From assembly GCA_016650365.1 (NCBI GenBank), contig JAENVV010000136.1, forward strand, positions 1 to 42,523: DNA of 42,523 nucleotides, given 5' to 3'. This stretch comes from Acidimicrobiia bacterium. Its GTDB lineage: Bacteria > Actinomycetota > Acidimicrobiia > Spongiisociales > JAENVV01. Under the pieces are notes generated by a model. It was not told the DNA's origin and did no database searches. It saw only the letters and a program-made list of their open reading frames with translations. The number at the start of each line of letters is the position of its first letter. The stretch's first letter is position 1. Made by a program: the position numbers and the translations under genes. Positions 22,749-38,995 of the stretch are shown here, piece by piece.

Positions 22749-23270
22749 GTGCCCCATTCTTCGATCAACCTCATTCGTGATATCCCTGACTTTCCATCGC
22801 CGGGGATTGTCTTCAAAGACATCACGCCTGTTCTCGCCGACGCAGCCGCGTTTCAGTCGGTGGTCTCCGATATGGCCGCACCGTATGCGGGTATCGGACT
22901 GACGCACGTTGCCGGTATCGAGGCGCGCGGGTTCATCCTCGCCACGCCGATCGCCGATCGGCTCGGGTTGGGATTTGTGCCGATTCGCAAGCCAGGCAAA
23001 TTGCCGGCGGCCACCCGGTCGGTCTCCTACGAACTCGAGTACGGGATCGACGAGCTACAAATCCACGAGGACGCGGTTGGTCCTGGGGATCGAGTTCTGA
23101 TAGTCGACGACGTCATCGCTACCGGGGGCACGGCTGCCGCCGCGATTGAACTCATCGAGCAACTCGGAGCGACGGTCGTCGGCCTATCCGTGTACGTCGA
23201 GCTGGCGTTCTTAAACGGCGCGAATCGCCTGAACGGCACCCCCCTAACCGCCCTGGTTGTTTATGCCTAG
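22749..23270 (+). CDS. apt: Adenine phosphoribosyltransferase
   Basis: The 173-residue enzyme converts adenine and PRPP to AMP. It has the family N-terminus IRDIPDFPSPGIVFKDITP, the AGIEARGF block, and the PRPP loop VLIVDDVIATGGTA near residues 116-129. The adjacent position to rel is conserved in actinobacteria. The GTG start lacks a ribosome-binding site and probably gives a leaderless message. The rel start codon lies within its last codons, so the two genes overlap. Confidence 0.95.
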   Translation: MPHSSINLIRDIPDFPSPGIVFKDITPVLADAAAFQSVVSDMAAPYAGIGLTHVAGIEARGFILATPIADRLGLGFVPIRKPGKLPAATRSVSYELEYGIDELQIHEDAVGPGDRVLIVDDVIATGGTAAAAIELIEQLGATVVGLSVYVELAFLNGANRLNGTPLTALVVYA

Positions 23271-25443
23271 CGGACCGGGGGAGGTCCCGGCCACCCTTGA
23301 ACACGTTGTGGGCGAACGCCACTGGGAGCCTCACGACCTCGAGCTGTTGATCCAGGCATACGAATTGGCTGAACGCCAACACCGCGGCCAAATACGCAAG
23401 TCGGGTCTTCCCTACATCACCCATCCGGTGGCGGTCACCGAAGTTCTCGCTGGCTACGGGATGGATCGCGACACCCTGGTTGCTGCGCTCCTACACGACA
23501 CGGTGGAGGACACCAGCTCAACCCTGGATGAGATTGCCGCCCAGTTCGGCCCGGTTGTGGCGGCGCTGATCGACGGTGTCACCAAGCTCGATCGGGTCCA
23601 CTTCGATAGTCGAGAAGAAGCGCAAGCTGCGACCATCCGCAAGATGGTGGTGGCGATGGCCGAGGACGTGCGGGTGTTGCTCATCAAGTTGGCCGACCGC
23701 CTCCACAACGTTCGCACGATCGAGTTCCTTGAACCGCCAAAACAGCAGTGGGTGGCTCTTGAGACGTTGGAAATCTATGCCCCGCTGGCTCACCGGCTCG
23801 GCGTCCAGGAGATCAAGCATGAGATGGAGAATCGTTGTTTCGCGATCCTGTACCCGAAGAGGTACGACGAAATCTCCGAGCTGATCGCTTTCCGGTCGCC
23901 ACAGCGTGAGGCCATCATCGACAAGGCGATCGGGGAAGTAGAAGGGACCCTCGGCGAGGCCGGGATTCCGGCGGTGGTTTCGGGACGCCCCAAGCACCAC
24001 TATTCGATCTACAAGAAGATGGTCGACTCGGGTCAGCAATTCGAAGATATCCACGACCTTATCGGGATCCGGATCATCGTGGCCGACGTGCAAGCCTGTT
24101 ACGGCGCCCTCGGACTCATCCACACGCTTTGGCCGCCGGTTCAGGGTCGGTTCAAGGACTACATCGCCATGCCGAAATTCAACTTGTACCAGTCGATTCA
24201 TACGACCGTAATCGGGCCAGACGGTAAACCGCTCGAAGTTCAGATTCGGACCCATGAGATGCATGAGCGGGCCGAATTCGGGATCGCCGCCCACTGGCGG
24301 TACAAAGAACGGGTCGAAACCGATTCACTTCCGTGGATGGCAGATATCCGGAGACTCCAGGACGAATTCGCCGAACCGGAAGAGTTCCTTACGCATCTCA
24401 AACTCGACCTGTATCAGGACGAGGTGTTCGTCCTTTCGCCAAAGGGCAGGGTGTTTTCGCTTCCACGCGGCGCGACCCCGGTGGACTTCGCGTATGTGGT
24501 GCACACAGAAGTCGGGCACCGCTGCACGGGCGCCAAGGTCAACGGTCGGCTGGTGGCCCTGGAAACTCAGCTCAATTCGGGTGATCTTGTTGAGATACTC
24601 ACGTCGAAAGCTCCCGATGCCGGGCCGAGCCAGGACTGGCTGAAGTTCGTGAGGAGTTCGCGAGCCAAGGCCAAGATTCGTCAATGGTTCTCCAAAGAGC
24701 GCCGCGAGTCGGCGGTCGCCGAAGGCAAGGAAGACGTGTTTGACGCGCTTCGCAAGGAAGGACTCGGGTTGACGGCCGCCCGACGCGATCAGGTCTTGGA
24801 GCTGGTTGCGACCGAACTCGGGCACTCGTCGATCGAGGCACTCTTTGCCGCAGTCGGGGAGGGGGGCGCCAGCGCAACCAACATTGCGCATCGCGTCACC
24901 AGAGAGGTTCGTCCCGAGATCGAAGCCGAAGAGGACGACCTCATCGCTCCACCACGGCAACGAACCGTTCGCTCAACAGGAACCGGCATCATCGTTGAGG
25001 GGTTGGACGATGTGCTCGTCCGGGTCGCCCAATGCTGTGTGCCGGTTCCGGGTGATGAGATCGTCGGTTTTGTCACGGTGGGCCGGGGGGTGTCTGTCCA
25101 TCGGTCGGACTGCACAAACCTGGCCGTGCTGGCCGATCAGCGGGACCGGATGATCGATGTCTCCTGGTCCCCGGATCGCGTTGGACGATTTGCCGTTTGG
25201 ATTCAGGTCGAGGCCTTCGACCGGGCTGGTCTCCTGCGGGACGTCACGGGAGTATTTACCGACGTCGGGGGGAACATTGTGGCCTCCTCGTCGGCGACCG
25301 GCCGTGACCGTGTGGCGGTGCTCCGCTATGAGGTGGAATTGTCCGATCCCAGTCATGTTGCCAGGATTCAGACCATGTTGCGGTCGGTTGACGGGGTGTA
25401 CGACGCTTTCCGGATCGTTCCCCGCGGAGACGGTACGGAGTAA
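23263..25443 (+). CDS. rel: Bifunctional (p)ppGpp synthetase/hydrolase Rel
   Basis: About 726 residues with all domains of long RSH enzymes. The HD hydrolase has HPVAVTEVLAGYG and LLHDTVEDT, the intact HDxxED motif, so hydrolysis should be active. The synthetase has GRPKHHYSIYKKM, IHDLIGIRIIV and the RFKD motif in GRFKDYIAMPKFNLYQSIHTT. TGS follows (VFVLSPKGRVFSLPRGATPVDFAY), then a helical/zinc-finger region with CCVPVPGDEIVGF, and a C-terminal ACT domain (FDRAGLLRDVTGVFTD). It makes and degrades the stringent-response alarmone. The ATG at 23263 lies within the apt end; a TTG at 23257 is the alternative. Confidence 0.95.
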   Translation: MPSGPGEVPATLEHVVGERHWEPHDLELLIQAYELAERQHRGQIRKSGLPYITHPVAVTEVLAGYGMDRDTLVAALLHDTVEDTSSTLDEIAAQFGPVVAALIDGVTKLDRVHFDSREEAQAATIRKMVVAMAEDVRVLLIKLADRLHNVRTIEFLEPPKQQWVALETLEIYAPLAHRLGVQEIKHEMENRCFAILYPKRYDEISELIAFRSPQREAIIDKAIGEVEGTLGEAGIPAVVSGRPKHHYSIYKKMVDSGQQFEDIHDLIGIRIIVADVQACYGALGLIHTLWPPVQGRFKDYIAMPKFNLYQSIHTTVIGPDGKPLEVQIRTHEMHERAEFGIAAHWRYKERVETDSLPWMADIRRLQDEFAEPEEFLTHLKLDLYQDEVFVLSPKGRVFSLPRGATPVDFAYVVHTEVGHRCTGAKVNGRLVALETQLNSGDLVEILTSKAPDAGPSQDWLKFVRSSRAKAKIRQWFSKERRESAVAEGKEDVFDALRKEGLGLTAARRDQVLELVATELGHSSIEALFAAVGEGGASATNIAHRVTREVRPEIEAEEDDLIAPPRQRTVRSTGTGIIVEGLDDVLVRVAQCCVPVPGDEIVGFVTVGRGVSVHRSDCTNLAVLADQRDRMIDVSWSPDRVGRFAVWIQVEAFDRAGLLRDVTGVFTDVGGNIVASSSATGRDRVAVLRYEVELSDPSHVARIQTMLRSVDGVYDAFRIVPRGDGTE

Positions 25444-25446: not shown

Positions 25447-25537
25447 GACTAGTCATGACGGGAGTGGTTGGTTAGGTCCGTCCGCGGACCCGAAAAAGGT
25501 CAAGGTTGACGGGCCAACCGACCGATACCTGGTACGT

Positions 25538-27622
25538 ATGCGTTTACTGCACCGCGTTCCGAATGACGAACGAGGCTTCACCCTCGTCGAAGCCATGGTT
25601 TCGCTTGTGATCATCTTTGGTCTCATGGTGGTGCTCCTACGAACCTTCGATTCCGGTACCAGGGTTATCGTTGAAACTCGCAGGCAGGCCGTCGCTTCGG
25701 CGTTTGCGTCTGAGCTCATCGAACGCGGCCAGGCACTCGAGTGGCAGCACATGGGTTTGGCGACGTCGACCCGCGGCAATAGTTGTGCGACCGAGCAGAT
25801 CGGCTGCTACATCGGTAATCCGTTCACTGCCGGCGACCTCGTCTACGACGGCATCGCCGACGAGTACTTGTTTGGCGGGGAGAAGGTCGTGTTCTCCAAC
25901 GCCGACACATTCCGCCCGTTCCTGAATTTTTATGAACAAGTCCAGCGAGATAAGTCCGTGTTCGACCGATATCTGTTCGTGACCTCTATCGAGAATCCGG
26001 TTACCGGTGATGAGGTCGCCCGTCGTCTGACTGCCATCGTTCAGTGGGTTCCACCGGGTGGGTTTCGCAAGGAAGTCCGCCTCGAAACCATCGTTGCCGA
26101 GTATCAGGAGCCATCTCAGCCGTTCGTTTCGGGTACGGTGAAGATGGCGGGTGGCGCGTTGCGGTTGGGACCGTCGGGTTCCGGAGCCTATCCAGGTGCG
26201 TACGCCCATGGCACCGATTGGGACCTGTGGACCACCACCGGCACCCGGCCTCCGATTGACTACGTTGGTGATGAATTTTTCTGGTCGACGATCAACGAGC
26301 GTCAGCAGTTTGATGCCTCGGTGAATTTCCCTATCGCCACGGTTAGCGCCACCTCTGACTTCGTGTCGGGTTCATCCATCCGTATTACCGGTACCGACTC
26401 TTCCCGGCTGCAATGGGAGGGCGCCGACGGGCTATTTGGAACCCCCGACGATACGATCTTTACGTTGCCGGCGGCCAAGACCGAGTTCATTTCCGACGAT
26501 GACGCCAGCACGCTGCCTCCCCTCCAATTTGGTGCGACCGGCGTCCTCTTCAATCAGCCTCTCGCCCGATTGAACCATGTTGGGGCGGTGGGCCAGGACA
26601 TCGAGATCACGGAGACCACCGATTATGCGGTGAATGGATACCTGTTCACGGAAGTCGACCCGGTCCCGGCCGCACCGCCACCGGACGACAAGTTCCCGTT
26701 CGCCCAACTGGCCACGACAACCAAGTTTCCGGCCAAAATTGCCGTCGGATTTACCGAGTACACCGAGCCGTGGGTGCGAACCAACTTATACGGAGGGTTC
26801 GCACCGCTCGGTGCCGCCTCGTACAAGTTTGACATGTTCCACCGCGAGAACCCGACCTCGGCGACCTCGGCGATGGTGTTCGGCGGCACGGTTGATCGCG
26901 ACGATACGCCGATAGACGGGTATCAGCAGATCACGGCCTCGCTCGACAATTACGACGGGGGGAACCTGCACTTTCTCGACGATACGGCATACCCGGATAC
27001 CGGTGGGACCGGCGATTTCTTTGGCTGGGTGCTTATCACGATGCCCGACATCCAGGTCAATGTTCTGGCCGGCCAAGGGGTCGTGGCATTGCCGAACCCG
27101 ATCATGTCAACAATGATCATCAAACAGTGGGATCCGGTCGGCAGAAAATATGTCGTCGTGAACCCGAATGGTACGAATACCGCGATCGATTATCGAGCCA
27201 ACTACGGCTCGGATTGTGACACCGGTACGAACGTCGAAAACACCCTGCAGTTGTGGGGTGGCGCCCCGGTGACCAGCACGATCAGCACATCGGGTCGGCC
27301 CTATCTCGAATACCGGGTGTCCGGCTCGGTAACCGTCCGTGGTTGGTGTACAGCATCGACGGTTGACGGCGCGGCGGCCCGGTCCCGGACATGGTTTGAG
27401 ACGAAGCTCCCCATGGTCACGGTCGACCTTAACTACCAGGTCGTTGACTACGGGCTGCAGGCTGCCGGCGCCGGTGCTCCCAAGCCTCTGGCGGTCCCGG
27501 CAGGCGCCACCAGCGATTATGCCCAGGATGGCGGGCGGATCGTGCTCTATGACCTCGCTCTGCACTACGAGTCCGAGAAGCTCCAGGTAAATGCTGTCTA
27601 CATCGATCCATCGGCGGACTGA
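25538..27622 (+). CDS. Very large type IV prepilin-like protein
   Basis: A 694-residue protein with a type III signal sequence: a basic leader ending DERG, cleavage after Gly13 before FTLVE, the conserved Glu at mature position 5 (residue 18), then a hydrophobic helix (AMVSLVIIFGLMVVLL). Typical pilins are 120-250 residues, so the region after about residue 180 (GSGAYPGAYAHGTDW onward) is an extra beta-rich, Asp/Gly/Thr-rich exposed part, perhaps an adhesive tip. Few cysteines are seen. The start is the ATG at 25538; the frame is open further up but there overlaps rel. It heads a three-gene cassette and is two bases from the next gene. The PilV-like role is an inference. Confidence 0.8.
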   Translation: MRLLHRVPNDERGFTLVEAMVSLVIIFGLMVVLLRTFDSGTRVIVETRRQAVASAFASELIERGQALEWQHMGLATSTRGNSCATEQIGCYIGNPFTAGDLVYDGIADEYLFGGEKVVFSNADTFRPFLNFYEQVQRDKSVFDRYLFVTSIENPVTGDEVARRLTAIVQWVPPGGFRKEVRLETIVAEYQEPSQPFVSGTVKMAGGALRLGPSGSGAYPGAYAHGTDWDLWTTTGTRPPIDYVGDEFFWSTINERQQFDASVNFPIATVSATSDFVSGSSIRITGTDSSRLQWEGADGLFGTPDDTIFTLPAAKTEFISDDDASTLPPLQFGATGVLFNQPLARLNHVGAVGQDIEITETTDYAVNGYLFTEVDPVPAAPPPDDKFPFAQLATTTKFPAKIAVGFTEYTEPWVRTNLYGGFAPLGAASYKFDMFHRENPTSATSAMVFGGTVDRDDTPIDGYQQITASLDNYDGGNLHFLDDTAYPDTGGTGDFFGWVLITMPDIQVNVLAGQGVVALPNPIMSTMIIKQWDPVGRKYVVVNPNGTNTAIDYRANYGSDCDTGTNVENTLQLWGGAPVTSTISTSGRPYLEYRVSGSVTVRGWCTASTVDGAAARSRTWFETKLPMVTVDLNYQVVDYGLQAAGAGAPKPLAVPAGATSDYAQDGGRIVLYDLALHYESEKLQVNAVYIDPSAD

Positions 27623-27624
27623 TC

Positions 27625-28260
27625 ATGATTCTCGACCGGCTACGCAGCGACGAACGAGGGCTCACGCTTACTGAGCTTATGGTCGCCATCTTCCTGCTCA
27701 CCATTGTAAGTGTCGTGTTCTCAAGTGTCCTGGCGTCATCACTGAATGCAACCAGAGACATCGAAAATGCCGCCCGCAGCAATGATGACATCCGCCTTGT
27801 TCTCCAGCAGATCGACAAAGAACTGCGAGGTGCCGAAACGATCTGTGAGCCCGCCCCCGGTGATACGTCGAACACCCTCTCATTCATCACGCGCTCGAAT
27901 CCGATTCCCCCGGAGACCACCCGCCACGTGATCTATCGACTGGTCGACGTTGACGGTGATGGGGTCAGCACCGATCTGCAACGCTCCGGCGACGGAGGAC
28001 TCACGTACATCACCGTCAACGACACGGTGGCGAATGAAGCGATGGCGCTTGAGCTGGGGGTACCCCAATTGCTATTTGAGAATCAGGGTCGAAACGAAAT
28101 CAACAACACGGGCCTGCCGGCCGCCTCACCGAGCTACGGAAAAGTCGTACGTATCGCCATCTGGGTCGACCGTAGCCCCATGGACCGGATCAGCCCTCGA
28201 TTGGAATCAACCGAAGTTGCCGGTCGCAATATCTGGACCCCCAATGCAGTCAACTGTTAG
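27625..28260 (+). CDS. Type IV prepilin-like protein (PilW-like)
   Basis: A 211-residue prepilin. The leader MILDRLRSDERG is cleaved after Gly12, followed by LTLTELMVAIFLLTIVSVVFSSVL with Glu at mature position 5. The globular part has a helix (AARSNDDIRLVLQQIDKELRGAETI) and a beta-rich end resembling PilW/GspJ-type minor pseudopilins (VIYRLVDVDGDGVSTDLQRS). It follows the large prepilin gene by two bases and precedes the third cassette gene by three. Likely part of the priming or tip complex of a type IV pilus in the cytoplasmic membrane; the specific minor pilin class is inferred. Confidence 0.82.
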   Translation: MILDRLRSDERGLTLTELMVAIFLLTIVSVVFSSVLASSLNATRDIENAARSNDDIRLVLQQIDKELRGAETICEPAPGDTSNTLSFITRSNPIPPETTRHVIYRLVDVDGDGVSTDLQRSGDGGLTYITVNDTVANEAMALELGVPQLLFENQGRNEINNTGLPAASPSYGKVVRIAIWVDRSPMDRISPRLESTEVAGRNIWTPNAVNC

Positions 28261-28263
28261 AAA

Positions 28264-29598
28264 GTGAAACCCATGTGCACATTGTTCCGACGCCTCAGAT
28301 CCGATGAAGATGGGATTGGTATCGTGACTGCCCTGGCCGTTTCGTTCATCGTATTCGCGCTCGGCGCGACGTGGTATTCGCTGGCTGTCCATGAGTTGGA
28401 CCAGGTCGCTTTCGACCGGAATCGCACGCAATCGTTGAACGTTGCCGAAGCGGGCGCCAAGGAAGCGATCGCCCAACTCACATATGACGTAGACAACTGG
28501 CGCACCGACGCCCAGAGCGTCGGGTTCGTATCCACGGGTATTTTGGCCGGTGGAGCTTGCGACATCAAAACACTGGACACCGTGGTCGAAGGCGCGGTCG
28601 ATAACCAGGGCGAGTATTGGGTGGCGGTCACCAAAGTCGACAATCTGAAATATCACGTTGAGGCCTGGGGTTGGTCGCCCAATCGCACAGCCCGGGGAGC
28701 AGTAGCCAAGAAGGTTCTGCTCGATGTCGAGTTGGTGCCGCTCGGCGGCTTCACCAACGCCTTGTTTGCGTCCAAAGGTGGCGTTGTCGGCTCAAACTTC
28801 AAGACGATCTATGGCGATGCGTACTCCGGTGAAGACGTCACCATCTCAAGTCAGACGAACATTTTCAAGAATGACGATCCGTATCGGGGACAAGGCACGT
28901 TGACGATCTACGGAGACTTGACCATCAATAACGGCTCGAACGTGTTCGTGCAGTCGGAAGTTCACGTCCAGGGACGGATCGACGATTTGTCGGCATCGAC
29001 CCAGTATGGCTCGACGGTTCAGATCCGCTCGGACAACGCGATCTCTGCCTATCTGAAATCATATTTCAAGAAGGCGACGGTTCTCGGTGGGGAAGTCAAG
29101 ACCGCAGATGCGGCGCTCAAGGCGGGGTCCAACATCCAGGGTGCCACGCTCATCGCCAGCGCCAATGATTTGCAGCCGGTTCCGGATGTCGCCCTCCCCA
29201 GCTTCACGTTCAAGGCGGGTGACTATACCGGCTATACGATCACGTATTACGCAGACTTGAATGCATTTCGAACGTACCTCGCCGCCAACGGCGACGATCT
29301 CGAAGGCGTCCATGTGGTGGCCGCCGGCGACGGCAGTGTCGTGAACTTCCACCAGGACACATTCACCGACAACTTCGTGCTGATCGTTGATGGTTCGTTT
29401 GAGATTCAAGGAACTCCCAAAGGCGGTTCCACCCCGACCGGTGATCCTGCGACTGCCCTCATCGTTATGAAGAATCCAGCAGGAACTTTGACGCTTGGTC
29501 AGAATTTCCAGTCCGTGCCTGGCGAGGTGCATCATTTGGTGTTCTCAAACGGGATCGTCACCTCGACGAATCAATCCGTGATCTACGGCGCCTTGTAG
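28264..29598 (+). CDS. PilX-like pilus assembly protein, ended by an in-frame TAG
   Basis: 444 residues to the first stop. The N-terminus (FRRLRSDEDG then IGIVTALAVSFIVFALGATWYSLA) copies the leader style of the two upstream prepilins but lacks Glu at mature position 5 and the usual aromatic, as in PilX-type proteins. A helix with ALNVAEAG-like LNVAEAGAKEAIAQL follows, typical of PilX. The rest is a repetitive beta-rich region (GDAYSGEDVTISSQTNIF, GDLTINNGSNVF), suggesting a beta-solenoid-like body. Starts are GTG 28264 or ATG 28273. The TAG at 29596 is followed by 58 sense codons in the same frame, listed separately, so the true product may be about 503 residues. Confidence 0.78.
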   Translation: MKPMCTLFRRLRSDEDGIGIVTALAVSFIVFALGATWYSLAVHELDQVAFDRNRTQSLNVAEAGAKEAIAQLTYDVDNWRTDAQSVGFVSTGILAGGACDIKTLDTVVEGAVDNQGEYWVAVTKVDNLKYHVEAWGWSPNRTARGAVAKKVLLDVELVPLGGFTNALFASKGGVVGSNFKTIYGDAYSGEDVTISSQTNIFKNDDPYRGQGTLTIYGDLTINNGSNVFVQSEVHVQGRIDDLSASTQYGSTVQIRSDNAISAYLKSYFKKATVLGGEVKTADAALKAGSNIQGATLIASANDLQPVPDVALPSFTFKAGDYTGYTITYYADLNAFRTYLAANGDDLEGVHVVAAGDGSVVNFHQDTFTDNFVLIVDGSFEIQGTPKGGSTPTGDPATALIVMKNPAGTLTLGQNFQSVPGEVHHLVFSNGIVTSTNQSVIYGAL

Positions 29599-29775
29599 GG
29601 GTACAAGGACCAGACCGGGAACCGACTTGAGATCCACTTCCGACCACCAGCCGAAGGTGTGATTCAGGGGTTCGAGTTCGATCCGCAGCTGGCTGACGCG
29701 TTCATACCTGAGCCAGGGGATTGGCGAGACGTGTCACCAACGGCGGATCCGATCACCGCCTACTGCACCCCCTAG
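29599..29775 (+). pseudogene. In-frame C-terminal continuation of the PilX-like gene after TAG
   Basis: The frame of the PilX-like gene continues past its TAG for 58 codons to a second TAG at 29773. The translated stretch (GYKDQTGNRLEIHFRPPAEG ... ITAYCTP) reads like normal protein. Its third codon positions are mostly G or C like the genes around it, and it has no start codon of its own near the beginning. It is either the severed end of the gene after a nonsense change, a sequencing error, or a readthrough extension. Confidence 0.6.
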
Positions 29776-29817: not shown

Positions 29818-30522
29818 ATGACCAATCACAACGTAGATCGCACGCAAGCGGCCTTCCCGATCAAGAAGGCCGCTTTGCTCATTGAGTCGCGCTCCCTATG
29901 GGTTGCCCAAACCAACACGTACGTGGTCGCTCCCGAACGCGGTGGGCCGGGTTTCATCGTCGATGCTCCTCCGGATATTGACTCGATCGTTGAGCTCGTC
30001 ACTTCGCTCGATGTTGCCCCGGTGGCGCTGCTGGTTACCCATGGCCATGTTGATCATGGGGGAGCCGCCGGCCAGGTCTCCAGCCATTTTGGGATCAAGG
30101 CGTACGTGCATCCCGATGACGACTACCTGAGCTTGGACCCCAACCGACAGGTTCAAACCCTCATGGGAATCCGATTGGCGGAACCGCTCCCGGTGCCCGA
30201 TTTCGAGCCCCTCATCCATGGACAGGTAATCCGGCTAGCCGGTATAGATGTTGAGGTGATCCACACACCCGGACACACGCCGGGACATGTTTGTTTCCGG
30301 GTGCCCGATGAGGAAGTTCTCCTCTCGGGAGACCAACTGTTTGCTGGTTCGATCGGTCGGACCGATCTACCGGGCGGCAGCTTTGAGCAGTTGATGGAGA
30401 GTATGAAGCAAAGGGTATTGACGCTCGACGACGAAGTCGTTGTTTTTCCTGGCCACGGACCAGCTACTACCGTTGGGCGGGAACGTCGCACGAACCCGTT
30501 CCTGCAAGGACTGATCCCATGA
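29818..30522 (+). CDS. MBL-fold metallo-hydrolase (glyoxalase II-like)
   Basis: A 234-residue metallo-beta-lactamase-fold hydrolase. The binuclear metal site is complete: THGHVDHGG (His75, His77, Asp79, His80), HTPGHTPGH, the bridging Asp in LLSGDQLF, and the final His in FPGHGP. IGRTDLPGG is typical of the glyoxalase II-like subgroup, which cleaves thioesters; the actual substrate is unknown. In mycobacteria the same kind of gene precedes hisS. The stop overlaps the hisS ATG (ATGA). The start is uncertain: ATG 29818 adds about 19 weakly conserved residues that span an eleven-pair inverted repeat, and a TTG at 29875 with AGAAGG five bases upstream is an alternative. Confidence 0.88.
   Translation: MTNHNVDRTQAAFPIKKAALLIESRSLWVAQTNTYVVAPERGGPGFIVDAPPDIDSIVELVTSLDVAPVALLVTHGHVDHGGAAGQVSSHFGIKAYVHPDDDYLSLDPNRQVQTLMGIRLAEPLPVPDFEPLIHGQVIRLAGIDVEVIHTPGHTPGHVCFRVPDEEVLLSGDQLFAGSIGRTDLPGGSFEQLMESMKQRVLTLDDEVVVFPGHGPATTVGRERRTNPFLQGLIP
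29846..29875 (+). repeat. Inverted repeat 2 at the start of the MBL gene (possible terminator)
   Basis: AAGCGGCCTTC, an eight-base loop and GAAGGCCGCTT form a perfect eleven-pair stem followed by TTTGC. It resembles an intrinsic terminator with a short T-tract, yet it lies in codons 10-20 of the frame starting at 29818. Its arms contain the same GGCCTTC/GAAGGCC as repeat 1, so arms can be exchanged. If it terminates the pilin cassette, the MBL gene may start at the TTG at 29875. Confidence 0.5.
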
Positions 30523-31526
30523 GCTTGCGCGCCCCCAAAGGCACCGATGACATCCTGCCTCCCCACTCGCGGGTGTGGCGCCGCTTGCTTTCGACCTGGG
30601 AATCCATGGCCGAGACCTACGGGTATGACCTCATCATGGTTCCGTTGTTCGAGTCGACGGAAGTCTTCAGCAGGGGGGTCGGTGAGTCGACTGAAGTCGT
30701 CCAAAAGCAGATGTACACGTTTGAAGACAAGAAAGGTCGCTCGCTCACGCTACGTCCTGAAGGAACTGCCGGCGTGGTGCGCGCTTTTATCCAGGCCGGC
30801 GCTCAGGGGGTCATGAAAGTCGCCTATTCGGGATCGATGTTCCGGTACGAACAGCCCCAGGCAGGTCGGCGGCGTCAGTTCTACCAGGTCGGGCTCGAGT
30901 ACCTCGGCACCGATGCCGCCGATGCCGATGCCGAGGTGATCGAACTCGGGTATCGGTACCTAGCGGCGACCGGGGTACCGGACGTCATCGTTCAGCTCAA
31001 CTCGCTCGGCGATGATGAGTGCCGCCCCGCCTACATAGATGCGTTGCGGACATGGCTGGAAGAACGGCGTGGTCTCTTATGTCAGGACTCGCTGAGAACG
31101 CTGGAACTGAACCCGATGCGGGTGCTCGACTGCAAGGTTTGCGCCCGAGTGGTCGCCGACGCTCCGTCTCCGATCGACTATTTATGCGAGGCTTGCCAAA
31201 CGCATCTTCTCGAGGTTCGGAGCCGACTTGATTCCGCCGGTGTGCCGTACCGAATGGAGCCCCGGTTGGTACGAGGACTCGACTACTACACACGAACCGC
31301 GTTTGAGTATGTGGGTTCTGCGCTTGACGCCGCGCAGACGGCGGTTGGGGGCGGTGGTCGTTACGACGGACTGGCCGAATTATTGGGCGGTCCACCGGTC
31401 CCCGGAGTCGGACTGGCCCTGGGTGTCGATCGGATCGCACTATCGGTGCCTGACCCCATGGAGCCGGCTCTCGATGCGTTCGTTGTAACACCGACGCCTA
31501 CCGGGCGGAGGCGCGTGCCCTGCTGA
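30519..31526 (+). CDS. hisS: Histidyl-tRNA synthetase, frame broken near its C-terminus
   Basis: The catalytic domain of HisRS is complete: LRAPKGTDDILP, motif 2 region SGSMFRYEQPQAGRRRQFYQVGLE, the histidine-specific LVRGLDYYTRTAFEY, and motif 3 GGGRYDGLAELLGG ... GLALGVDRIAL. After DAFVVTPT (about residue 326) the frame turns to PTGRRRVPC and stops, giving 335 residues where about 410-430 are usual. The missing anticodon-binding domain continues in the -1 frame (next feature). One missing G in the GACGCC at 31493-31498 (expected ACGGCC) would restore a 407-residue enzyme. The enzyme is essential, so a sequencing error is likely unless a second hisS exists. Confidence 0.93.
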   Translation: MSLRAPKGTDDILPPHSRVWRRLLSTWESMAETYGYDLIMVPLFESTEVFSRGVGESTEVVQKQMYTFEDKKGRSLTLRPEGTAGVVRAFIQAGAQGVMKVAYSGSMFRYEQPQAGRRRQFYQVGLEYLGTDAADADAEVIELGYRYLAATGVPDVIVQLNSLGDDECRPAYIDALRTWLEERRGLLCQDSLRTLELNPMRVLDCKVCARVVADAPSPIDYLCEACQTHLLEVRSRLDSAGVPYRMEPRLVRGLDYYTRTAFEYVGSALDAAQTAVGGGGRYDGLAELLGGPPVPGVGLALGVDRIALSVPDPMEPALDAFVVTPTPTGRRRVPC

Positions 31527-31741
31527 GTACCCTTCGGGCGACGGGGATTCGCTCCGATGGCCTGCCTGACCAACGGTCGCTCAAGGCGCAGTTCAAAGCG
31601 GCTGATCGACGAGGTGCCCTGGCCGTCATCGTGGTTGGCGATGAGTGGGAATCTGGCCAGGTCGTCGCCAAGCGACTCGACGACGGGTCACAAGTTGTTA
31701 TTGGATCCGAGGAGATTGTGACATGGCTGCAGAGCCTTTGA
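31496..31741 (+). pseudogene. hisS: Out-of-frame anticodon-binding domain of hisS
   Basis: In the -1 frame relative to the upstream part, AYRAEARALLSTLRATGIRS, then KAQFKAADRRGALAVIVVGD and a final VIGSEEIVTWLQSL are the typical C-terminal anticodon-binding domain of HisRS. There is no start codon or ribosome site for separate translation. It ends at TGA 31739-31741 and overlaps the aspS start by 19 bases, as expected for an intact operon before the frame change. Confidence 0.85.
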
Positions 31742-33501
31742 GAACCGATTATGCGGGCGAGCTTTCAGCTGCTCGAATTGGCGATACCGTTCGCCTGGCT
31801 GGCTGGGTGGCCAAACGGCGCGACCACGGCGGGGTCGTGTTCGTGGATCTGAGAGACGTCAAAGGGATCGTGCAGGTTGTGATTGACCCGGACGCGATAC
31901 CGGCAGCCCATGAACTCCGCATGGAGTACTGCGTTTCAGTGGTTGGAGAGGTGCGGGCCCGCATGGCAGGGACTGAAAACCCTGATATGCCTACCGGGGC
32001 CGTTGAGGTTGGTGTATCCGCGGTGACGGTTCTGAGCGCTTCTGACCCCCTGCCATTCATGATTGACGATCGGGCAGACACCGAAGAACTGATTCGACTC
32101 GAGTACCGCTACCTTGATTTTCGTCGAGCGCCGATGGCGGCGGCCCTCCGGGCTCGCGGAGCAGCCGTTCATGCCATGCGCACCACCATGGCTGAGGCCG
32201 GGTTTCTCGAAGTCGAGACGCCGACGCTGATAGCGTCAACTCCCGAAGGGGCGCGTGACATGCTTGTACCATCCCGCCTCCGCCAGGGAGAGTTCTACGC
32301 ACTTCCTCAATCTCCCCAGCTGTTCAAGCAGCTTCTGATGGTCGGAGGGGTCGACCGTTATTATCAGATTGCCCGCTGTTATCGGGATGAAGACTTCCGT
32401 TCCGATCGACAGCTCGAGTTCACCCAGCTCGACATTGAAGGGTCATTCTGGACGGCCGCAGATGTCCAGGCCATGATCGAGAAAGCCGTCGCCGCGGCGG
32501 TCAAAGCGGTGCGGGGGGTCGAGCTTCGGCTACCCCTACCGAAGCTGACGTATGCCGAGGCGATGGATCGGTTCGGATCTGACAAACCAGATCTGCGTTT
32601 CGGTATGGAAATCGTCGATGTGTCCTCGGTGTTCGCCGGTACGGAGTTTAAAGGCTTCGGTGGAGCACTCGAAGCTGGGGGCGTGGTGCGCGGGATCAAC
32701 GCCGGGGGACTCGGCTTTTCACGGAGTGGTCTCGACGGCCTCGTCTCGGATGCTCAGGCACTTGGTGCCAAAGGCCTCGCATGGCTCGTGCTTGAAGATG
32801 ACGGCACCTGGCGCTCGCCGATTGCCAAATTCCTCTTAGATGCCGAACTGGCGGGCCTCGTGGAACGGTTCGATGCCCAGTCGGGCGACACCGTGTTGTT
32901 GGTGGCCGATATGGCCAAAGTGGCCGGGGCGGTTCTTGGACCCATCCGGATTCAGCTTGGTAAACCCGAGGGCCACCAGGACCTGGCGTTCACCTGGGTT
33001 ACCGATTTTCCGGTATTTGACGTGCATGATGATGGCAGCCTGGCACCGGCCCATCATCCCTTTACCCAGCCAGTCAGTATCGAGGACATGGTGGAACGCC
33101 CGGAGACGGCGATCGCCCAGGCATACGATCTCGTTCTCAACGGTTCCGAGCTCGGGTCCGGGAGCGTTCGTATCCACGACCCCGACGTACAGGCCAAAGT
33201 GTTTGAAGTACTTGGTATTTCAGACGAAGAAGCCCAATCGCGCTTTGGTTGGTTCATCAAGGCGTTGCGTTACGGCACCCCTCCTCATGCCGGCTTCGCA
33301 GTCGGGGTTGACCGACTGCTCGCCATCCTGTTGGAGCGCGAATCGATTCGCGACGTCATTCCGTTCCCGAAGACCCAGCGCGGAATTGATCCGCTCACCG
33401 CCTCGCCGACCAGAGTCACCGACGTGCAACTGCGCGAGCTCGGGATTGATCTGCGACCCGAGGTGAAAGCCAGGTTGACAGAACAAGCCCCCGGGGACTG
33501 A
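31723..33501 (+). CDS. aspS: Aspartyl-tRNA synthetase, likely non-discriminating
   Basis: The 592-residue bacterial-type class II enzyme has an N-terminal OB fold (VRLAGWVAKRRDHGGVVFVDLRD), the catalytic core (LEVETPTLIASTPEGARDMLVPSR, LPQSPQLFKQLLMVGGVDRYYQIARCYRDEDFRSDRQLEFTQLD), the GAD insertion, and motif 3 (GFAVGVDRLLAILLERESIRDVIPFPKT). In the anticodon domain His35 and the Gly of RARMAG match the His31/Gly82 pair linked to tRNA-Asn acceptance in Pseudomonas aeruginosa AspRS. If so, it also makes Asp-tRNA-Asn for GatCAB. The ATG at 31723 follows GAGGAG. The stop shares one base with the rarA start. Confidence 0.96.
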   Translation: MAAEPLRTDYAGELSAARIGDTVRLAGWVAKRRDHGGVVFVDLRDVKGIVQVVIDPDAIPAAHELRMEYCVSVVGEVRARMAGTENPDMPTGAVEVGVSAVTVLSASDPLPFMIDDRADTEELIRLEYRYLDFRRAPMAAALRARGAAVHAMRTTMAEAGFLEVETPTLIASTPEGARDMLVPSRLRQGEFYALPQSPQLFKQLLMVGGVDRYYQIARCYRDEDFRSDRQLEFTQLDIEGSFWTAADVQAMIEKAVAAAVKAVRGVELRLPLPKLTYAEAMDRFGSDKPDLRFGMEIVDVSSVFAGTEFKGFGGALEAGGVVRGINAGGLGFSRSGLDGLVSDAQALGAKGLAWLVLEDDGTWRSPIAKFLLDAELAGLVERFDAQSGDTVLLVADMAKVAGAVLGPIRIQLGKPEGHQDLAFTWVTDFPVFDVHDDGSLAPAHHPFTQPVSIEDMVERPETAIAQAYDLVLNGSELGSGSVRIHDPDVQAKVFEVLGISDEEAQSRFGWFIKALRYGTPPHAGFAVGVDRLLAILLERESIRDVIPFPKTQRGIDPLTASPTRVTDVQLRELGIDLRPEVKARLTEQAPGD

Positions 33502-34832
33502 TGGAAGACCTGTTTTCAGCCGAAAAGGCCGAGCGCCGGATGCGGGCGGCTCCGTTGCCGGCCAGGATGAGACCGCAACGTTTGTCGGAGGTGGTCGGCC
33601 ACGCCCAACTTCTTGGCGAAGGGGCCGCGTTCCGGACCATGGTCGAGCAGGGTCGCCCGGTATCGATGATCCTATTCGGTCCGCCGGGCACCGGAAAGAC
33701 GACCCTGGCCCGACTCGTTGCCTCTGAATCCTCGGCGACCTTTGAGCCGCTATCGGCCACATCGGCCACCGTCAAGGATGTCAGAGCCATACTGGCATCC
33801 GCCCGATATCGGCTGGAGACCGAGGAACGCCGAACGGTGTTGTTCCTCGACGAGATCCACCGCTTCTCGAAGTCACAGCAAGACGCCCTGCTTCCCGGAG
33901 TTGAAGATGGAACGGTGATTCTCGTCGGCGCAACGACCGAGAACCCGTTCTTCGAGGTGAACTCACCGTTGCTTTCTCGCTGCACCCTGTTCCGGATCCA
34001 TCGTCTGGAGGCTGCCGATATCGCCCGACTCATCCAACGGGCATTGACGGATCCGAACGGGTTAGGCGATCTCGATATTGCAATAGACGAAGATGCACTT
34101 GATGCATTGGCCGATCGGGTCGGCGGAGATGGTCGACTCGCCCTCAATGCGCTGGAGACCGCGGCCATAGTTGCCGCCGGCCGTGGTCAAGCTGTCATCA
34201 CCCTGGATGACATTGCCGAGGCGCTCGGGCGGCGAATCGTTCAGTACGACAAGGACGGTGACAACCACTACGACGTGGTTTCAGCGTTCATCAAGAGCTT
34301 GCGTGGATCCGACATCGATGCCTCGTTGTATTGGCTCCACACGATGCTCGACGCCGGGGAAGATCCTGAGTTCGTGGCCCGCCGGATGATCATCATGGCG
34401 TCCGAGGATATTGGCCTGGCCGACTCGCACGCGTTGCAAGTCGCCGTCGCAGCTTTTCAAGCGCTCCAGGTCGTCGGCCTGCCAGAAGCTGCCTTTGCCC
34501 TATCCCACGCCGCCATTTACCTGGCGGCCGCCCCAAAATCGAATTCGGTCACGGTCGCCATGGGCAAGGCGAGGCAGGCCGTGGCGAGCAATGCTTCAGC
34601 CGAAGTACCGCCTCACCTTCGTGATGCCCACTACGCCGGGGCGGCCCGGTTGGGTCACGGCACCACCTACGCGTATCCCCACGATCACCCCGACCACCAT
34701 GTTCGGCAGCAGTATTTGCCAGAAGGTATTGGCATGGACTCACTGTATGTGCCGACCGCTCAGGGGACTGAGGGCGATATTGCTGCCCGAATGGCGGCCC
34801 GCGGCCAACTCCCCAAGCCGCCAACCCGATAA
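33501..34832 (+). CDS. rarA: Replication-associated recombination ATPase RarA
   Basis: The 443-residue AAA+ protein of the RarA/MgsA/WRNIP1 family acts at stalled replication forks. It opens with MEDLFSAEKAE, has Walker A GPPGTGKTT, Walker B VLFLDEIHRFSKSQQDALLP, sensor 1 IGATTENP-like LVGATTENPFFEVN with arginine finger LSRC, and the family C-terminal blocks KDGDNHYDVVSAFIKSLRGSDIDASLYWL and RRMIIMASEDIGLAD. It sits between aspS and alaS as in many actinobacteria and overlaps the aspS stop by one base. Confidence 0.95.
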   Translation: MEDLFSAEKAERRMRAAPLPARMRPQRLSEVVGHAQLLGEGAAFRTMVEQGRPVSMILFGPPGTGKTTLARLVASESSATFEPLSATSATVKDVRAILASARYRLETEERRTVLFLDEIHRFSKSQQDALLPGVEDGTVILVGATTENPFFEVNSPLLSRCTLFRIHRLEAADIARLIQRALTDPNGLGDLDIAIDEDALDALADRVGGDGRLALNALETAAIVAAGRGQAVITLDDIAEALGRRIVQYDKDGDNHYDVVSAFIKSLRGSDIDASLYWLHTMLDAGEDPEFVARRMIIMASEDIGLADSHALQVAVAAFQALQVVGLPEAAFALSHAAIYLAAAPKSNSVTVAMGKARQAVASNASAEVPPHLRDAHYAGAARLGHGTTYAYPHDHPDHHVRQQYLPEGIGMDSLYVPTAQGTEGDIAARMAARGQLPKPPTR

Positions 34833-34836
34833 CCGA

Positions 34837-34865
34837 TTCGGTCAATGCGCCTCGAAAGCTAAGCT
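34837..34865 (+). promoter_or_regulatory. Possible alaS promoter
   Basis: TTCGGT and TAAGCT are 17 bases apart, and the -10 ends nine bases before the alaS ATG. Transcription would begin zero to four bases before the start codon. The alaS ATG has no Shine-Dalgarno, which fits a leaderless message. Confidence 0.38.
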
Positions 34866-34874
34866 GCCGCCTTC

Positions 34875-37502
34875 ATGGAAACCAGCAACCAGATTCGCCA
34901 AGCTTTTCTAGATTTCTTTGCCGAGCGGGGCCATGTTGTCCGTCCTTCAGCATCGTTGATCCCGATCGACCCGACATTGCTGCTGACGAACGCCGGCATG
35001 GTGCCCTTCAAGCCGTACTTTCTCGGCGAGGAGGCTCCTCCGTTCGACCGGGCCGTCTCACCCCAGAAGTGCGTGCGGACCATCGATATCGACATCATTG
35101 GCTCCACCGATCGTCACATCTCGTTTTTCGAGATGCTCGGAAATTTCAGTTTTGGGGACTACTTCAAACCGGAAGCCATTGCCTGGGCCCACGAATTCGT
35201 GACGACGATTCTCGGATTGCCAGAGGATCGACTCTGGTACACCGTGTATGAGACCGACGACGAAGCCGCCGAAATTTGGCTCACCCAGGAAGGCATCGAC
35301 CCGGAGCGCCTGCAGCGGGGCGGTAAGGACAACTTCTGGCAAATGGGCGTGGCGGGTCCGTGCGGGCCATCATCTGAGATCTTCTATGATCGAGGCCCCG
35401 AATATGGTGCCGACGGTGGGCCGATCGGTGGGGGCGAAGACCGGTTCGTCGAAATCTGGAACCTGGTCTTCATGCAGAATATTCAGGATGTGCCCTATCA
35501 CGTGGTGGGCGACCTCCCGGCCAAGAGCATTGATACCGGTATGGGTCTGGAGCGGGTTGCGATGGTGCTTCAACAGGCCGGTTCGATTTTTGAAATCGAC
35601 ACCGTGCGTCCCATTCTGGAAGAGGCGGCCGCCTACGGCTCGGTAACCTTCGGCGACGATCCGACAATCGATGTCTCGTTGAAGATCATTGCTGATCACG
35701 CCAGAACGGTGGCGATGCTGGTCGGCGACGGCGTAACACCGTCGAACGCAGGTCGGGGCTACGTATTGCGCCGGGTACTTCGCCGGGCAGTTCGGCACGG
35801 TTGGCAACTAGGAGGCGACGGCCTCATCATGCCTCGTCTTATCGAGGTTGTGGTGGAAGTGCTGGGCGGAGGGCATCGCAACCTGGTCGACAAACGCGAA
35901 CTGCTGCTGACGGTGGTCGAGCGGGAGGAAACGCAATTTCGTCGCACCTTGGAAGCGGGTCAGAGCCTCATGTCCGAGGCGCTCTCCAATTTGGAGCCGG
36001 GTGGAGTGTTCCCCGGACCGGTGGCGTTCAAACTGCATGACACGTTCGGTTTCCCCATCGAGATGACGAAAGAGATCGCCGCCGAAGCAGGCCATACCGT
36101 CGACGAGGACGGATTCGCCGCCGAAATGTCCGCCCAGCGGGCCAGGGCCAAAGCGGCCTTTACCGGCGGTGCCGAGGCCGCCCTGGGTCAGATGTATCTG
36201 TCGGTACTCGATGCGATCGGCCCGACGACCTTTGTTGGTTACGAAGTCGAGGCAAGTACCGGGACCGTGTTGGCCATGCTTTCAGATGGCGATCAGGTGG
36301 AGCGAGTCGAGCAAGGCCAGTCGGTCGAGGTGTTCCTCGATGTGACGCCGTTCTACGCCGAGAGCGGCGGCCAGGTCGGAGACACCGGCACGATACGCAC
36401 GGAGACCGGGGTCGTGGTGGTGGCCGATACCAAGCATGCCGTGCAAGGTTTTCATGGGCATCGGGGCAAAGTGACCAGCGGCTTTGTGCAGACCGGCCAG
36501 CTCGCCGAGCTGGCGATCGATTCCCCGCGCCGGGAACGGATTCGCAAGTCGCACACCGGGACTCACCTTGTGCACGCTGCGTTGCGCACGGTTATCGGTG
36601 CTCAGGCACATCAAGCTGGTTCGCTGGTTGAGCCTGGGCGATTGCGATTCGACTTCAACCATCATGCGGCGCTAACCGACGAAGAGATCCTCGAAGTCGA
36701 GCGACTCACCAACGAACAGATAATCGATAATCCGCAGATTCAGACATTGGTTACCTCGATGGACGAGGCGAAAGCCCAGGGTGCGCTCGCCTTCTTTGGC
36801 GATAAGTATGGCGATACGGTCCGGATGGTCCGTATCGGAGAGTTCTCCAAGGAGCTGTGCGGCGGAACCCATACTCCCAGTGCCGGCCAAGTTGGCCCGA
36901 TTGTGCTGACGACCGAGTCTTCGGTCGGCTCGAACGTTCGTCGGATCGAAGCTCTGTCGGGAAATGATGGATACACCTATTTGAGCCGATTGCGCCGAGC
37001 CCTCGACAGTGCGGGTTCTCTGCTCAGGGCCGCGCCAGGCGATGTGCCGGCCCGGGTCGAGGCGTTACTTGCCAAGAATCAGTCGCTCGAGTCGCAACTG
37101 GCTGCTCTGGCCGATCAGGCCCGCTCGGCTGATGCAGCCGAACTGGCTGCCAGAGCGGTTGCCATTGGCGAGGCAGTCATCGTCGTCACCGAGCGCTCGG
37201 ACTTGCGACCAGACGAGCTGCGCCTCCTTGCGATGTCCGTTCGTGATCGGATTGCCTCCGGCATTGTCCTGATCGGATCCGCTTTCGGAGGGAAAGGCGC
37301 CCTCGTTGGACTGGTGACAAAAGATCTTGTCGATCGGGGAGTGTCTGCCGCCGAGCTGGTTGCGGCCGGAGCAGGTTTCCTGGGTGGGGGAGGTAGCCGG
37401 GACCCCGAGTTATCGCAAGCAGGTGGGCCGAATGGTAGTAACTTGGGGGCGGCGCTCGAAGCAGCCAGGGAAAGTGCCGAACGAACCCTCACGGAGGTAT
37501 AG
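34875..37502 (+). CDS. alaS: Alanyl-tRNA synthetase
   Basis: The full 875-residue enzyme. The class II catalytic domain starts with IRQAFLDFFAERGHVVRPSASL and TNAGMVPFKPYFLG, with STDRHISFFEMLGNFSFGDYFK. The editing domain carries the zinc-binding pair SHTGTHLVHAAL and CGGTHTPSAG. The C-Ala domain ends with the glycine-rich FLGGGGSRDPELSQAGGPNGSNL. It attaches alanine to tRNA-Ala and clears mischarged Ser and Gly. Adjacent ruvX-mltG-aroE is the common order. The last bases hold GGAGGT, the ribosome site for ruvX. Confidence 0.97.
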   Translation: METSNQIRQAFLDFFAERGHVVRPSASLIPIDPTLLLTNAGMVPFKPYFLGEEAPPFDRAVSPQKCVRTIDIDIIGSTDRHISFFEMLGNFSFGDYFKPEAIAWAHEFVTTILGLPEDRLWYTVYETDDEAAEIWLTQEGIDPERLQRGGKDNFWQMGVAGPCGPSSEIFYDRGPEYGADGGPIGGGEDRFVEIWNLVFMQNIQDVPYHVVGDLPAKSIDTGMGLERVAMVLQQAGSIFEIDTVRPILEEAAAYGSVTFGDDPTIDVSLKIIADHARTVAMLVGDGVTPSNAGRGYVLRRVLRRAVRHGWQLGGDGLIMPRLIEVVVEVLGGGHRNLVDKRELLLTVVEREETQFRRTLEAGQSLMSEALSNLEPGGVFPGPVAFKLHDTFGFPIEMTKEIAAEAGHTVDEDGFAAEMSAQRARAKAAFTGGAEAALGQMYLSVLDAIGPTTFVGYEVEASTGTVLAMLSDGDQVERVEQGQSVEVFLDVTPFYAESGGQVGDTGTIRTETGVVVVADTKHAVQGFHGHRGKVTSGFVQTGQLAELAIDSPRRERIRKSHTGTHLVHAALRTVIGAQAHQAGSLVEPGRLRFDFNHHAALTDEEILEVERLTNEQIIDNPQIQTLVTSMDEAKAQGALAFFGDKYGDTVRMVRIGEFSKELCGGTHTPSAGQVGPIVLTTESSVGSNVRRIEALSGNDGYTYLSRLRRALDSAGSLLRAAPGDVPARVEALLAKNQSLESQLAALADQARSADAAELAARAVAIGEAVIVVTERSDLRPDELRLLAMSVRDRIASGIVLIGSAFGGKGALVGLVTKDLVDRGVSAAELVAAGAGFLGGGGSRDPELSQAGGPNGSNLGAALEAARESAERTLTEV
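37493..37498 (+). promoter_or_regulatory. Strong ribosome-binding site that decides the ruvX start
   Basis: GGAGGT is eight bases from CTG 37507 but twenty bases from ATG 37519. The first spacing is normal and the second is too long, so this site points to the CTG. Confidence 0.5.
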
Positions 37503-37506
37503 AACC

Positions 37507-37935
37507 CTGGGACGCGTCATGGGCGTCGATTACGGAACAACCCGAATCGGCGTTGCCCTCTCTGATCAACTACATATCACCGCCCAACCGTTTCGGGTGG
37601 TTGAGGCGAGCGTGTTTGACAAAGAAGTGGTGTCGATCGTGGCCGAAAGCGATGTTGAGCGTATCGTCGTTGGCCTGCCGACCCACTTGCAGGGCCGAAA
37701 CGACGCGGCGGCCCGGGCGGCCGTTGGGTTCGCCGATCATCTGGCCGGGATCACCGGACTTCCTGTCGAAACGGTCGATGAGCGCTTCACGACCGCCGCC
37801 GCCCAATCGTTCCTGATCGACTCCGGGGTACGGCGGGAAAAGAGAAAAGAGGTCGTAGACAAGGTGGCGGCGGCGGTTCTGCTGCAGCGTTGGCTCGACA
37901 TTCAACCCGCAGGAGAGAGCCATGACATCGTTTGA
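37507..37935 (+). CDS. ruvX: RuvX/YqgF RNase H-fold nuclease
   Basis: An RNase H-fold protein linked to 16S rRNA 5' end processing and to Holliday junction resolution. Landmarks are GVDYGTTRIGVALSD with the first acidic residue, IVVGLPTHLQGR, VETVDERFTTAAAQ with the second, and KRKEVVDKVAAAVLLQRWL with the third. The only ATG (37519) would cut the first beta strand, which normally begins several residues before GxDYG. A perfect GGAGGT at 37493-37498 lies eight bases before a CTG at 37507, giving LGRVMGVDYG. I therefore prefer CTG, a rare start; the ATG is the conventional option. Its 3' end overlaps mltG by 14 bases. Confidence 0.85.
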   Translation: MGRVMGVDYGTTRIGVALSDQLHITAQPFRVVEASVFDKEVVSIVAESDVERIVVGLPTHLQGRNDAAARAAVGFADHLAGITGLPVETVDERFTTAAAQSFLIDSGVRREKRKEVVDKVAAAVLLQRWLDIQPAGESHDIV

Positions 37936-38995
37936 AGAACCGCGTAATCGCAGTGTGCTGGCCGTGGTAATCGTTCTTGTGGCGATACTCGGGCTTGGCC
38001 TGGTGGGCAAAGCCATGTTCTCAGGACTCTTCGGTGGCTCCTCCGGGACGACGGTTGCCTCTACTGCCACGGTGGGTGTTCCGGTGGTCGTCGAGGTTCC
38101 GGCCGGTGCGTCAGCCAGGACCATCGGGTCGCTGCTTCAGGGTGCCGACGTCATTGCGTCATCCAGAGAGTTTGAGCGGGCGGTCAAAGATGGCGGCTAC
38201 GAGCAACGACTCGGGGCCGGACGGTACGAACTCACCACCGGGATGTCCATGGATGACGTGATTGCCGTGTTGCTGGCCGGACCAGCCTTTGAGTCCTACC
38301 GTATCACCGTGCGAGAGGGGCTCCGAATCGGTGAGGTCCTCACTGAAATCTCCACTCAAACCCCCTTTACCGAGGGCGAACTGGAAGAGGCGCTGTTGAG
38401 TGGGGCCGTACAAAGCTCTCTGCTGGATGGTGATTTCGCCACAATTCAGGCCTGGGAGGGCCTGTTGTTTCCTGACACATACGACTTTGAGACTGACGCG
38501 AGTGCTGCCGCCATCCTCGGTAAGCTGGCGCGCACGATGGAGACCAGGGTCGGGTCGATCAATTGGTCACCGTGGACCGAACGAGGGTTCACGATCTACG
38601 AAGGGATCGTGGCCGCTTCGATCATCGAAGCTGAGACCAAAGTTGACATTGATCGGCCCAGCGTTGCCTCGGTTATTGTCAATCGGATCGAGGTTGGTAT
38701 GCCGCTCCAGATTGACGCGACCGTGCTGTATGCTCTCGATGCCAGGGGGATTGGACTGACGCTCAATGACCTGGAGATCGACTCCCCGTACAACACCTAC
38801 CTGAACCTCGGTCTCCCACCCACTCCAATCGGAGGGCCCGGGTTGGCGTCTCTGGAGGCGATTGCCGATCCGCCCGTCACCGACTACATCTACTACGTCC
38901 TGACCGCCGCGGATGGCTCACACAGCTTCACAGCCGATTACAACGAGTTTTTGGGTTGGAAGGATAAGGCGAAGGCCGAAGGCCTCTTTCCGTGA
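37922..38995 (+). CDS. mltG: Endolytic murein transglycosylase MltG
   Basis: The 357-residue YceG-like enzyme cuts nascent glycan strands at the membrane and sets their length. One N-terminal membrane anchor (VLAVVIVLVAILGLGLVG) is followed by a LysM-like/beta domain (VVVEVPAGASARTIGSLLQ) and the catalytic domain: EGLLFPDTYDF, ASIIEAET with the catalytic Glu, DATVLYAL, SPYNTYLNLGLPPTPIGGPGLASLEA and the final YYVLTAADGSHSFTADYNEF. Its start lies within the ruvX 3' end and its stop overlaps the aroE start, so it is translated within one operon. Confidence 0.95.
   Translation: MTSFEEPRNRSVLAVVIVLVAILGLGLVGKAMFSGLFGGSSGTTVASTATVGVPVVVEVPAGASARTIGSLLQGADVIASSREFERAVKDGGYEQRLGAGRYELTTGMSMDDVIAVLLAGPAFESYRITVREGLRIGEVLTEISTQTPFTEGELEEALLSGAVQSSLLDGDFATIQAWEGLLFPDTYDFETDASAAAILGKLARTMETRVGSINWSPWTERGFTIYEGIVAASIIEAETKVDIDRPSVASVIVNRIEVGMPLQIDATVLYALDARGIGLTLNDLEIDSPYNTYLNLGLPPTPIGGPGLASLEAIADPPVTDYIYYVLTAADGSHSFTADYNEFLGWKDKAKAEGLFP

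Follow-up and report, generated by a model that had tools for sequence, protein, structure and literature searches.

A minor-pilin cassette conserved between rel and hisS in Acidimicrobiia, the probable tip genes of a monoderm type IVa pilus with a WhiG-type promoter

We found that three prepilin-like genes lie between rel and an MBL-hisS pair in a window of 42,523 nucleotides (one entire contig, C136, of an uncultured Acidimicrobiia bacterium; GenBank JAENVV010000136.1) and that the same site holds prepilin genes in ten families. The reading that we favor, with a probability of roughly 0.75, is that these genes encode the PilV-PilW-PilX tip of a monoderm type IVa pilus, and that their operon has its own WhiG/FliA-type promoter and is controlled by c-di-GMP. 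The pilus itself is of a known kind; three features of it are new, namely a conserved site at which its gene set is split, a promoter of the WhiG type in Acidimicrobiia, and a PilT that bears an MshEN domain.

Results

The pilV-pilW-pilX cassette

The gene order of the window is secD-secF-apt-rel, three ORFs, and then MBL-hisS-aspS-rarA-alaS-ruvX-mltG-aroE-DUF4388-pilB; all features of the window described below are on the forward strand. The upstream anchor, rel (RelA/SpoT; 23257-25443; Pfam HD_4, RelA_SpoT, TGS and ACT), is followed after 94 bases by ORF 1, a pilV-like minor pilin gene (25538-27622, 694 aa), and then, with gaps of two and three bases, by the pilW-like ORF 2 (27625-28260, 211 aa) and the pilX-like ORF 3 (28264-29598, 444 aa up to a TAG). 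A gene for an MBL-fold hydrolase (29818-30522; Pfam Lactamase_B) forms the downstream anchor. An initial annotation, made from the sequence without database searches, had described three prepilin-like genes at this place with these spacings, and coordinates, Pfam matches and conservation all agree with it.

ORF 1 and ORF 2 match Pfam N_methyl with 22.7 and 25.7 bits, respectively (cut-off 21.2), carry the prepilin motifs GFTLVE and GLTLTE, and have a Glu5 that is invariant in 13 and 14 homologues. ORF 3 matched no family in the profile search; it has a hydrophobic pilin helix 3' of GIGIVT, lacks Glu5, as do PilX and GspK, and has a C-terminal part made of beta repeats. The V(E5)-W(E5)-X(no E5) pattern is invariant in 13-14 homologues per gene and is the one expected of a minor-pilin tip complex, with Glu5 in V and W and none in X/K. 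No FimU/GspH-like, PilY1 or PilE partner was seen within the cassette. Comparison with a congener gave dN/dS values of 0.04-0.07 for the cassette genes, indicating strong purifying selection, and because of this, and of the homologues at the same site in many genera, we do not regard the ORFs as products of chance. Structure models of moderate confidence give PilV and PilX a long N-terminal helix and beta-rich outer parts, comprising a large C-terminal module in PilV and a beta-repeat region in PilX; a fold search of the two models against the PDB returned no credible match.

The initial annotation had ended the cassette at 29775, which is indeed the next stop in the pilX frame, although the pilX of the assembly ends at TAG 29596-29598. 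The corresponding codon in the nearest congener, G005, is TAC (tyrosine), and the congeners read through into what is here an in-frame continuation of 58 codons plus a stop (29599-29775); over these 58 codons G005 differs by 8 synonymous changes and by 0 non-synonymous ones. The neighboring hisS (30519-31526), the sole copy in the genome, has a one-base gap relative to a congener (at about 31480-31530) and is frameshifted after about codon 324. Because this single-copy gene is damaged as well, we read the TAG as a consensus error, and on the simplest interpretation of the sequences both lesions are probably errors of the assembly; a recent nonsense mutation in pilX is a conceivable alternative. 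Recoding of, or read-through at, the TAG was considered and rejected in view of the tyrosine codon in the nearest congener and of the damage to the neighboring hisS.

The pilus machinery downstream

A conserved block of aspS, rarA, alaS, ruvX, mltG and aroE (31645-39783) is followed by a gene for a DUF4388 protein (39848-40894; Pfam DUF4388) and by pilB (40901-42523), an arrangement that the initial annotation had already described. The DUF4388 protein, encoded directly 5' of pilB, has a winged-helix-like part and also occurs in families f4 and f17 (families are numbered f1, f2 and so on throughout). The window ends inside pilB, and its last 141 bases overlap exactly with another contig of the same genome (C61, locus L005, in reverse complement) that, when reversed, reads pilB-pilT-pilC-pilA1-pilA2-pilD-pilM-pilN-pilO and then one further ORF. 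The pilus cluster of G005 closes with the same further ORF, followed by aroC and aroB. Pfam backs every named pilus protein tested on C61, and the expectation that pilC, pilM-O, pilT, a major pilin and a prepilin peptidase would be found beyond pilB was thus borne out in full on the overlapping contig, with two major pilins.

The set of proteins is that of a type IVa pilus. Both motor ATPases are present: for PilB, which is cut by the contig end, TIGR02538 is the best match (626 bits, below the equivalog cut-off of 675.65), and PilT scores 475 bits against TIGR01420, above its cut-off. The platform consists of one protein, PilC, which carries two T2SSF domains, and there is also an alignment complex of PilM, PilN and PilO (all above their Pfam cut-offs), a prepilin peptidase and a major pilin with the N_methyl motif. 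No match to a secretin (PilQ/GspD) in this genome reached a family cut-off. Monoderm systems have no secretin (PMC6668835), and for this reason the missing PilQ does not exclude membership in type IVa. Judged from its genes, the system is a monoderm type IVa pilus. The proposal that its minor pilins and motor are split around a housekeeping block also holds beyond this genome, the same hisS-aspS-rarA-alaS-ruvX-mltG-aroE block being flanked in this way in other families.

Conservation of the rel-hisS site

We surveyed 112 Acidimicrobiia genomes in which rel and hisS lie on one contig and on the same strand. The cassette is present between them in 26 of 36 genomes with pilM versus 1 of 76 without it (Fisher p = 3e-16, a value that overstates independence since the genomes are related), and in the lone carrier without pilM, G013, the contig with pilB to pilD ends before pilM, an assembly gap. 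Median rel-hisS gaps are 4.7 kb with the cassette and 0.64 kb in genomes without pilM. Inspection of the gap showed prepilin cassettes in 27 genomes of ten families: within the order of the window's genome, PilX homologues occupy the interval from rel to MBL or hisS in f1, f4, f5 (G027), f7 and f8, and in other orders the cassette is found in f17, f21, f24 (inverted), f26 and f33. Ten genomes with pilM have no cassette at rel-hisS, and in two genomes of f5 (G035 and G048) it is kept elsewhere. Among 147 genomes surveyed across the phylum, the long gaps inspected outside the class contained no prepilins, and the rel-hisS gaps of 4-7 kb in family f47 likewise have none inside. At three loci of f8 (L083, L055 and L082) two prepilin cassettes stand in succession between rel and hisS, suggesting duplication.

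The initial annotation had called the cassette an insertion, a term that calls for some qualification. Its location between rel and MBL-hisS is not peculiar to this genome: the cassette occupies this site in the majority of the Acidimicrobiia that have the pilus and is missing from the inspected intervals of other actinobacterial classes. The location is a fixture of the class, which was presumably gained by an ancestor and has been lost along with the pilus.

A probable WhiG-type promoter before pilV

One block of the spacer between rel and pilV is conserved among four congeners and includes TCAA-N17-ACCGATAC. The TCAA (25500-25503), retained in the four congeners and in other families, aligns to the TAAA of the -35 element of flagellar/WhiG-type promoters and, after a 17-base spacer, ACCGATAC (25521-25528) aligns to the -10 element GCCGATAA, 9 bases 5' of the ATG. 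We scored leaders against the flagellar/WhiG consensus TAAA / GCCGATAA over 12 positions, with a spacing of 15-17 bases. We settled on this scheme after seeing the motif in f1, f4 and f5; a fresh test is provided by the leaders of f2, f8, f17, f21, f24, f26 and f33, the majority of which score 9 or more. Taking one pilV leader from each of 24 genera, 14 score 10-12 of 12, in keeping with a WhiG-type promoter (TAAA-N15/16-GCCGATAA), and 19 reach 9; dinucleotide shuffles gave a mean of 0.09 leaders at 10 or more (maximum 2) and of 1.2 at 9, and none of 17 internal pilW leaders reached 9. The window's own promoter scores 9/12 (p = 0.12 when set against shuffles of itself), and because this score is modest the case for a promoter rests on conservation. 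The promoters of pilA1 and pilA2 in this genome score 10, and that of an f4 pilA scores 11. No good match was found in f7 and in some genera of f8 and f17.

The distance from the -10 element to the in-frame start is mostly 6-10 bases in f1, f2, f4, f5 and f8 and mostly greater in other orders. With a start codon so close to the -10 element, the pilV mRNA is probably leaderless in the order of the window's genome. A riboswitch in the leader is not favored: an Rfam search of the conserved leader and of the window gave no match, and we read the conservation as that of a promoter. At two f24 loci (L093 and L094) the cassette is inverted relative to rel and hisS and retains a WhiG-type promoter, and at two f5 loci (L043 and L044) it lies away from rel and still has TAAA/TCAG-N15-GCCGATAC 5' of pilV.

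WhiG, RsiG and c-di-GMP domains

In Rubrobacter, a WhiG-RsiG-c-di-GMP switch drives the promoters of a pilus and of DGC/PDE genes, and a twin-motif RsiG is found in three of four Acidimicrobiales (PMC8325347). Genome G036, which is of the same family as the window's genome and is in one scaffold, encodes both whiG and rsiG. Its WhiG-type sigma factor scores 335.7 bits against NF004935 (just below the cut-off of 343) and exceeds the cut-off of TIGR02479, and the gene adjoins putative tsf, pyrH and frr genes; its RsiG (Pfam RsiG, 6e-18) has two E-S-R-H-D motifs, i.e. it is twin-motif, with His in place of Gln in both. A scan of about 93% of this genome (about 1.58 Mb) gave 11 strict matches to the WhiG-type promoter, of which one lies before pilV, one before a REC-GGDEF gene and others before genes for a CAP-domain protein and DUF3566. 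The REC-GGDEF gene (contig C1, near 1366303) is directly behind its promoter, as in Rubrobacter. The conserved promoter motif suggests that the cassette is switched on by WhiG, a sigma factor that answers to c-di-GMP.

Both motors pass the cut-off (38) of the NCBIfam c-di-GMP motif NF053729, PilB with 45.1 bits and PilT with 40.3. The MshEN domain of PilT (522 aa; L005:6201-7769, reverse strand) is N-terminal, and the long PilT N-terminus is also present in G005, G013, G011, G019 and G220. In the literature that we found, MshEN is described for extension ATPases, with no mention of a PilT that has it.

Discussion

How might such a pilus work? We propose that the cassette encodes a PilV-PilW-PilX tip (priming) complex, on which PilB, PilC, PilM, PilN, PilO, PilD and two PilA proteins, from genes some 10 kb downstream, would assemble the fibre, with retraction left to PilT. 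At the tip, PilV and PilX would display their large outer modules, which probably touch surfaces or DNA. The cassette operon would be transcribed from its own WhiG/FliA-type promoter into an mRNA with no leader or hardly any, and pilA1 and pilA2 would be transcribed along with it from promoters of the same type; at high c-di-GMP, RsiG-(c-di-GMP) would hold WhiG, and c-di-GMP may also act on the two motors, PilB and PilT, via their MshEN domains. That the pilus would receive three c-di-GMP inputs at once (WhiG held by RsiG for the dispersed pilin genes, extension through PilB-MshEN and retraction through PilT-MshEN) is a tentative idea to which we give somewhat less than even odds; the literature that we found does not mention this triple arrangement with MshEN on PilT.

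Could the three genes instead encode type II secretion pseudopilins? V-W-X match GspI-J-K in order, and GspK, like X here, is without Glu5. The type II reading fails because no secretin (GspD) reaches its cut-off, and against it also stand the presence of PilT and the union of major pilins with PilM/N/O in one cluster; we consider it extremely unlikely. Both outcomes that would have spoken for abandoning a pilus, a lack of further pilus genes or a type II context, are contradicted by the pilus genes on C61 and by this missing secretin. Scarcely more probable is that the cassette came into this genome as a mobile insertion or is in decay here, its pilX having already become a pseudogene; the TAG and the absence of pilins from the site in other classes could be cited for this. 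Against decay are the identity of the site in ten families, the low dN/dS with no non-synonymous change past the TAG, and the frameshift in the adjacent hisS, which points to consensus errors.

A more serious alternative, although still an unlikely one, accepts the same tip cassette and attributes its expression to another sigma factor or to read-through from rel, with the CCGATA element being something else. The gap of just 94 bases between rel and pilV would suit read-through, and the modest score of the window's own promoter and the several f7, f8 and f17 genera without a good match are also in its favor. It does not account for a two-part match with a spacing of 15-17 bases and a fixed distance to the ATG in many families, nor for retention of the motif where the cassette lies away from rel (f5) or is inverted (f24). 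We retain the WhiG-driven tip cassette as the preferred reading.

The minor pilins of Pseudomonas aeruginosa are FimU-PilV-PilW-PilX, with a PilX that lacks Glu5 and a locus apart from the motors. The cassette resembles them in its V-W-X order, in an X without Glu5 and in its separation from the motor genes; it differs in showing no FimU, PilY1 or PilE and in its much larger V and X, and the system here is monoderm with no PilQ. The modular minor pilins PilB/PilC of Streptococcus sanguinis (PMC8179133, PMC9934059) are likewise monoderm pilins with large extra modules, whereas the modules here have no fold match. The closest parallel in control is Rubrobacter, an actinobacterium whose pilus genes also lie behind WhiG-type promoters (TAAA / GCCGATAA) and in which diguanylate cyclase genes are among the promoter targets; its reported promoters, however, are in one pilus cluster, unlike the separate minor pilins at rel-hisS, and its RsiG is single-motif, in contrast to the twin-motif RsiG (in G036) and the MshEN-bearing PilT described here (PMC8325347).

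The significance of these observations is that a complete type IVa machine occurs in a large part of a deep actinobacterial class and has a fixed site for its tip genes, one that annotators can use and that is not described in the literature that we found. The promoter evidence extends the WhiG/c-di-GMP control of Rubrobacter to another class and supports the view that the role of WhiG in controlling pili is an old one that predates Streptomyces sporulation. A PilT with a c-di-GMP-type domain also raises a question of retraction control that is directly testable. The statement of the initial annotation that such pili are little described in actinobacteria is correct in part: a 2019 review gives the pili studied in Actinobacteria as Tad type (PMC6916266), but pili of Rubrobacter and Actinoplanes have already been studied (PMC8325347) and, within the same class, type IVa genes (pilABCEMOTY1) are reported in free-living members of order UBA5794, in a source whose part cited here gives no account of gene position, promoters or regulation (PMC12008989). 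Three other contigs of the window's own genome (C29, C77 and C126 of G000) carry more T2SSE and T2SSF genes, which probably belong to Tad-type pili.
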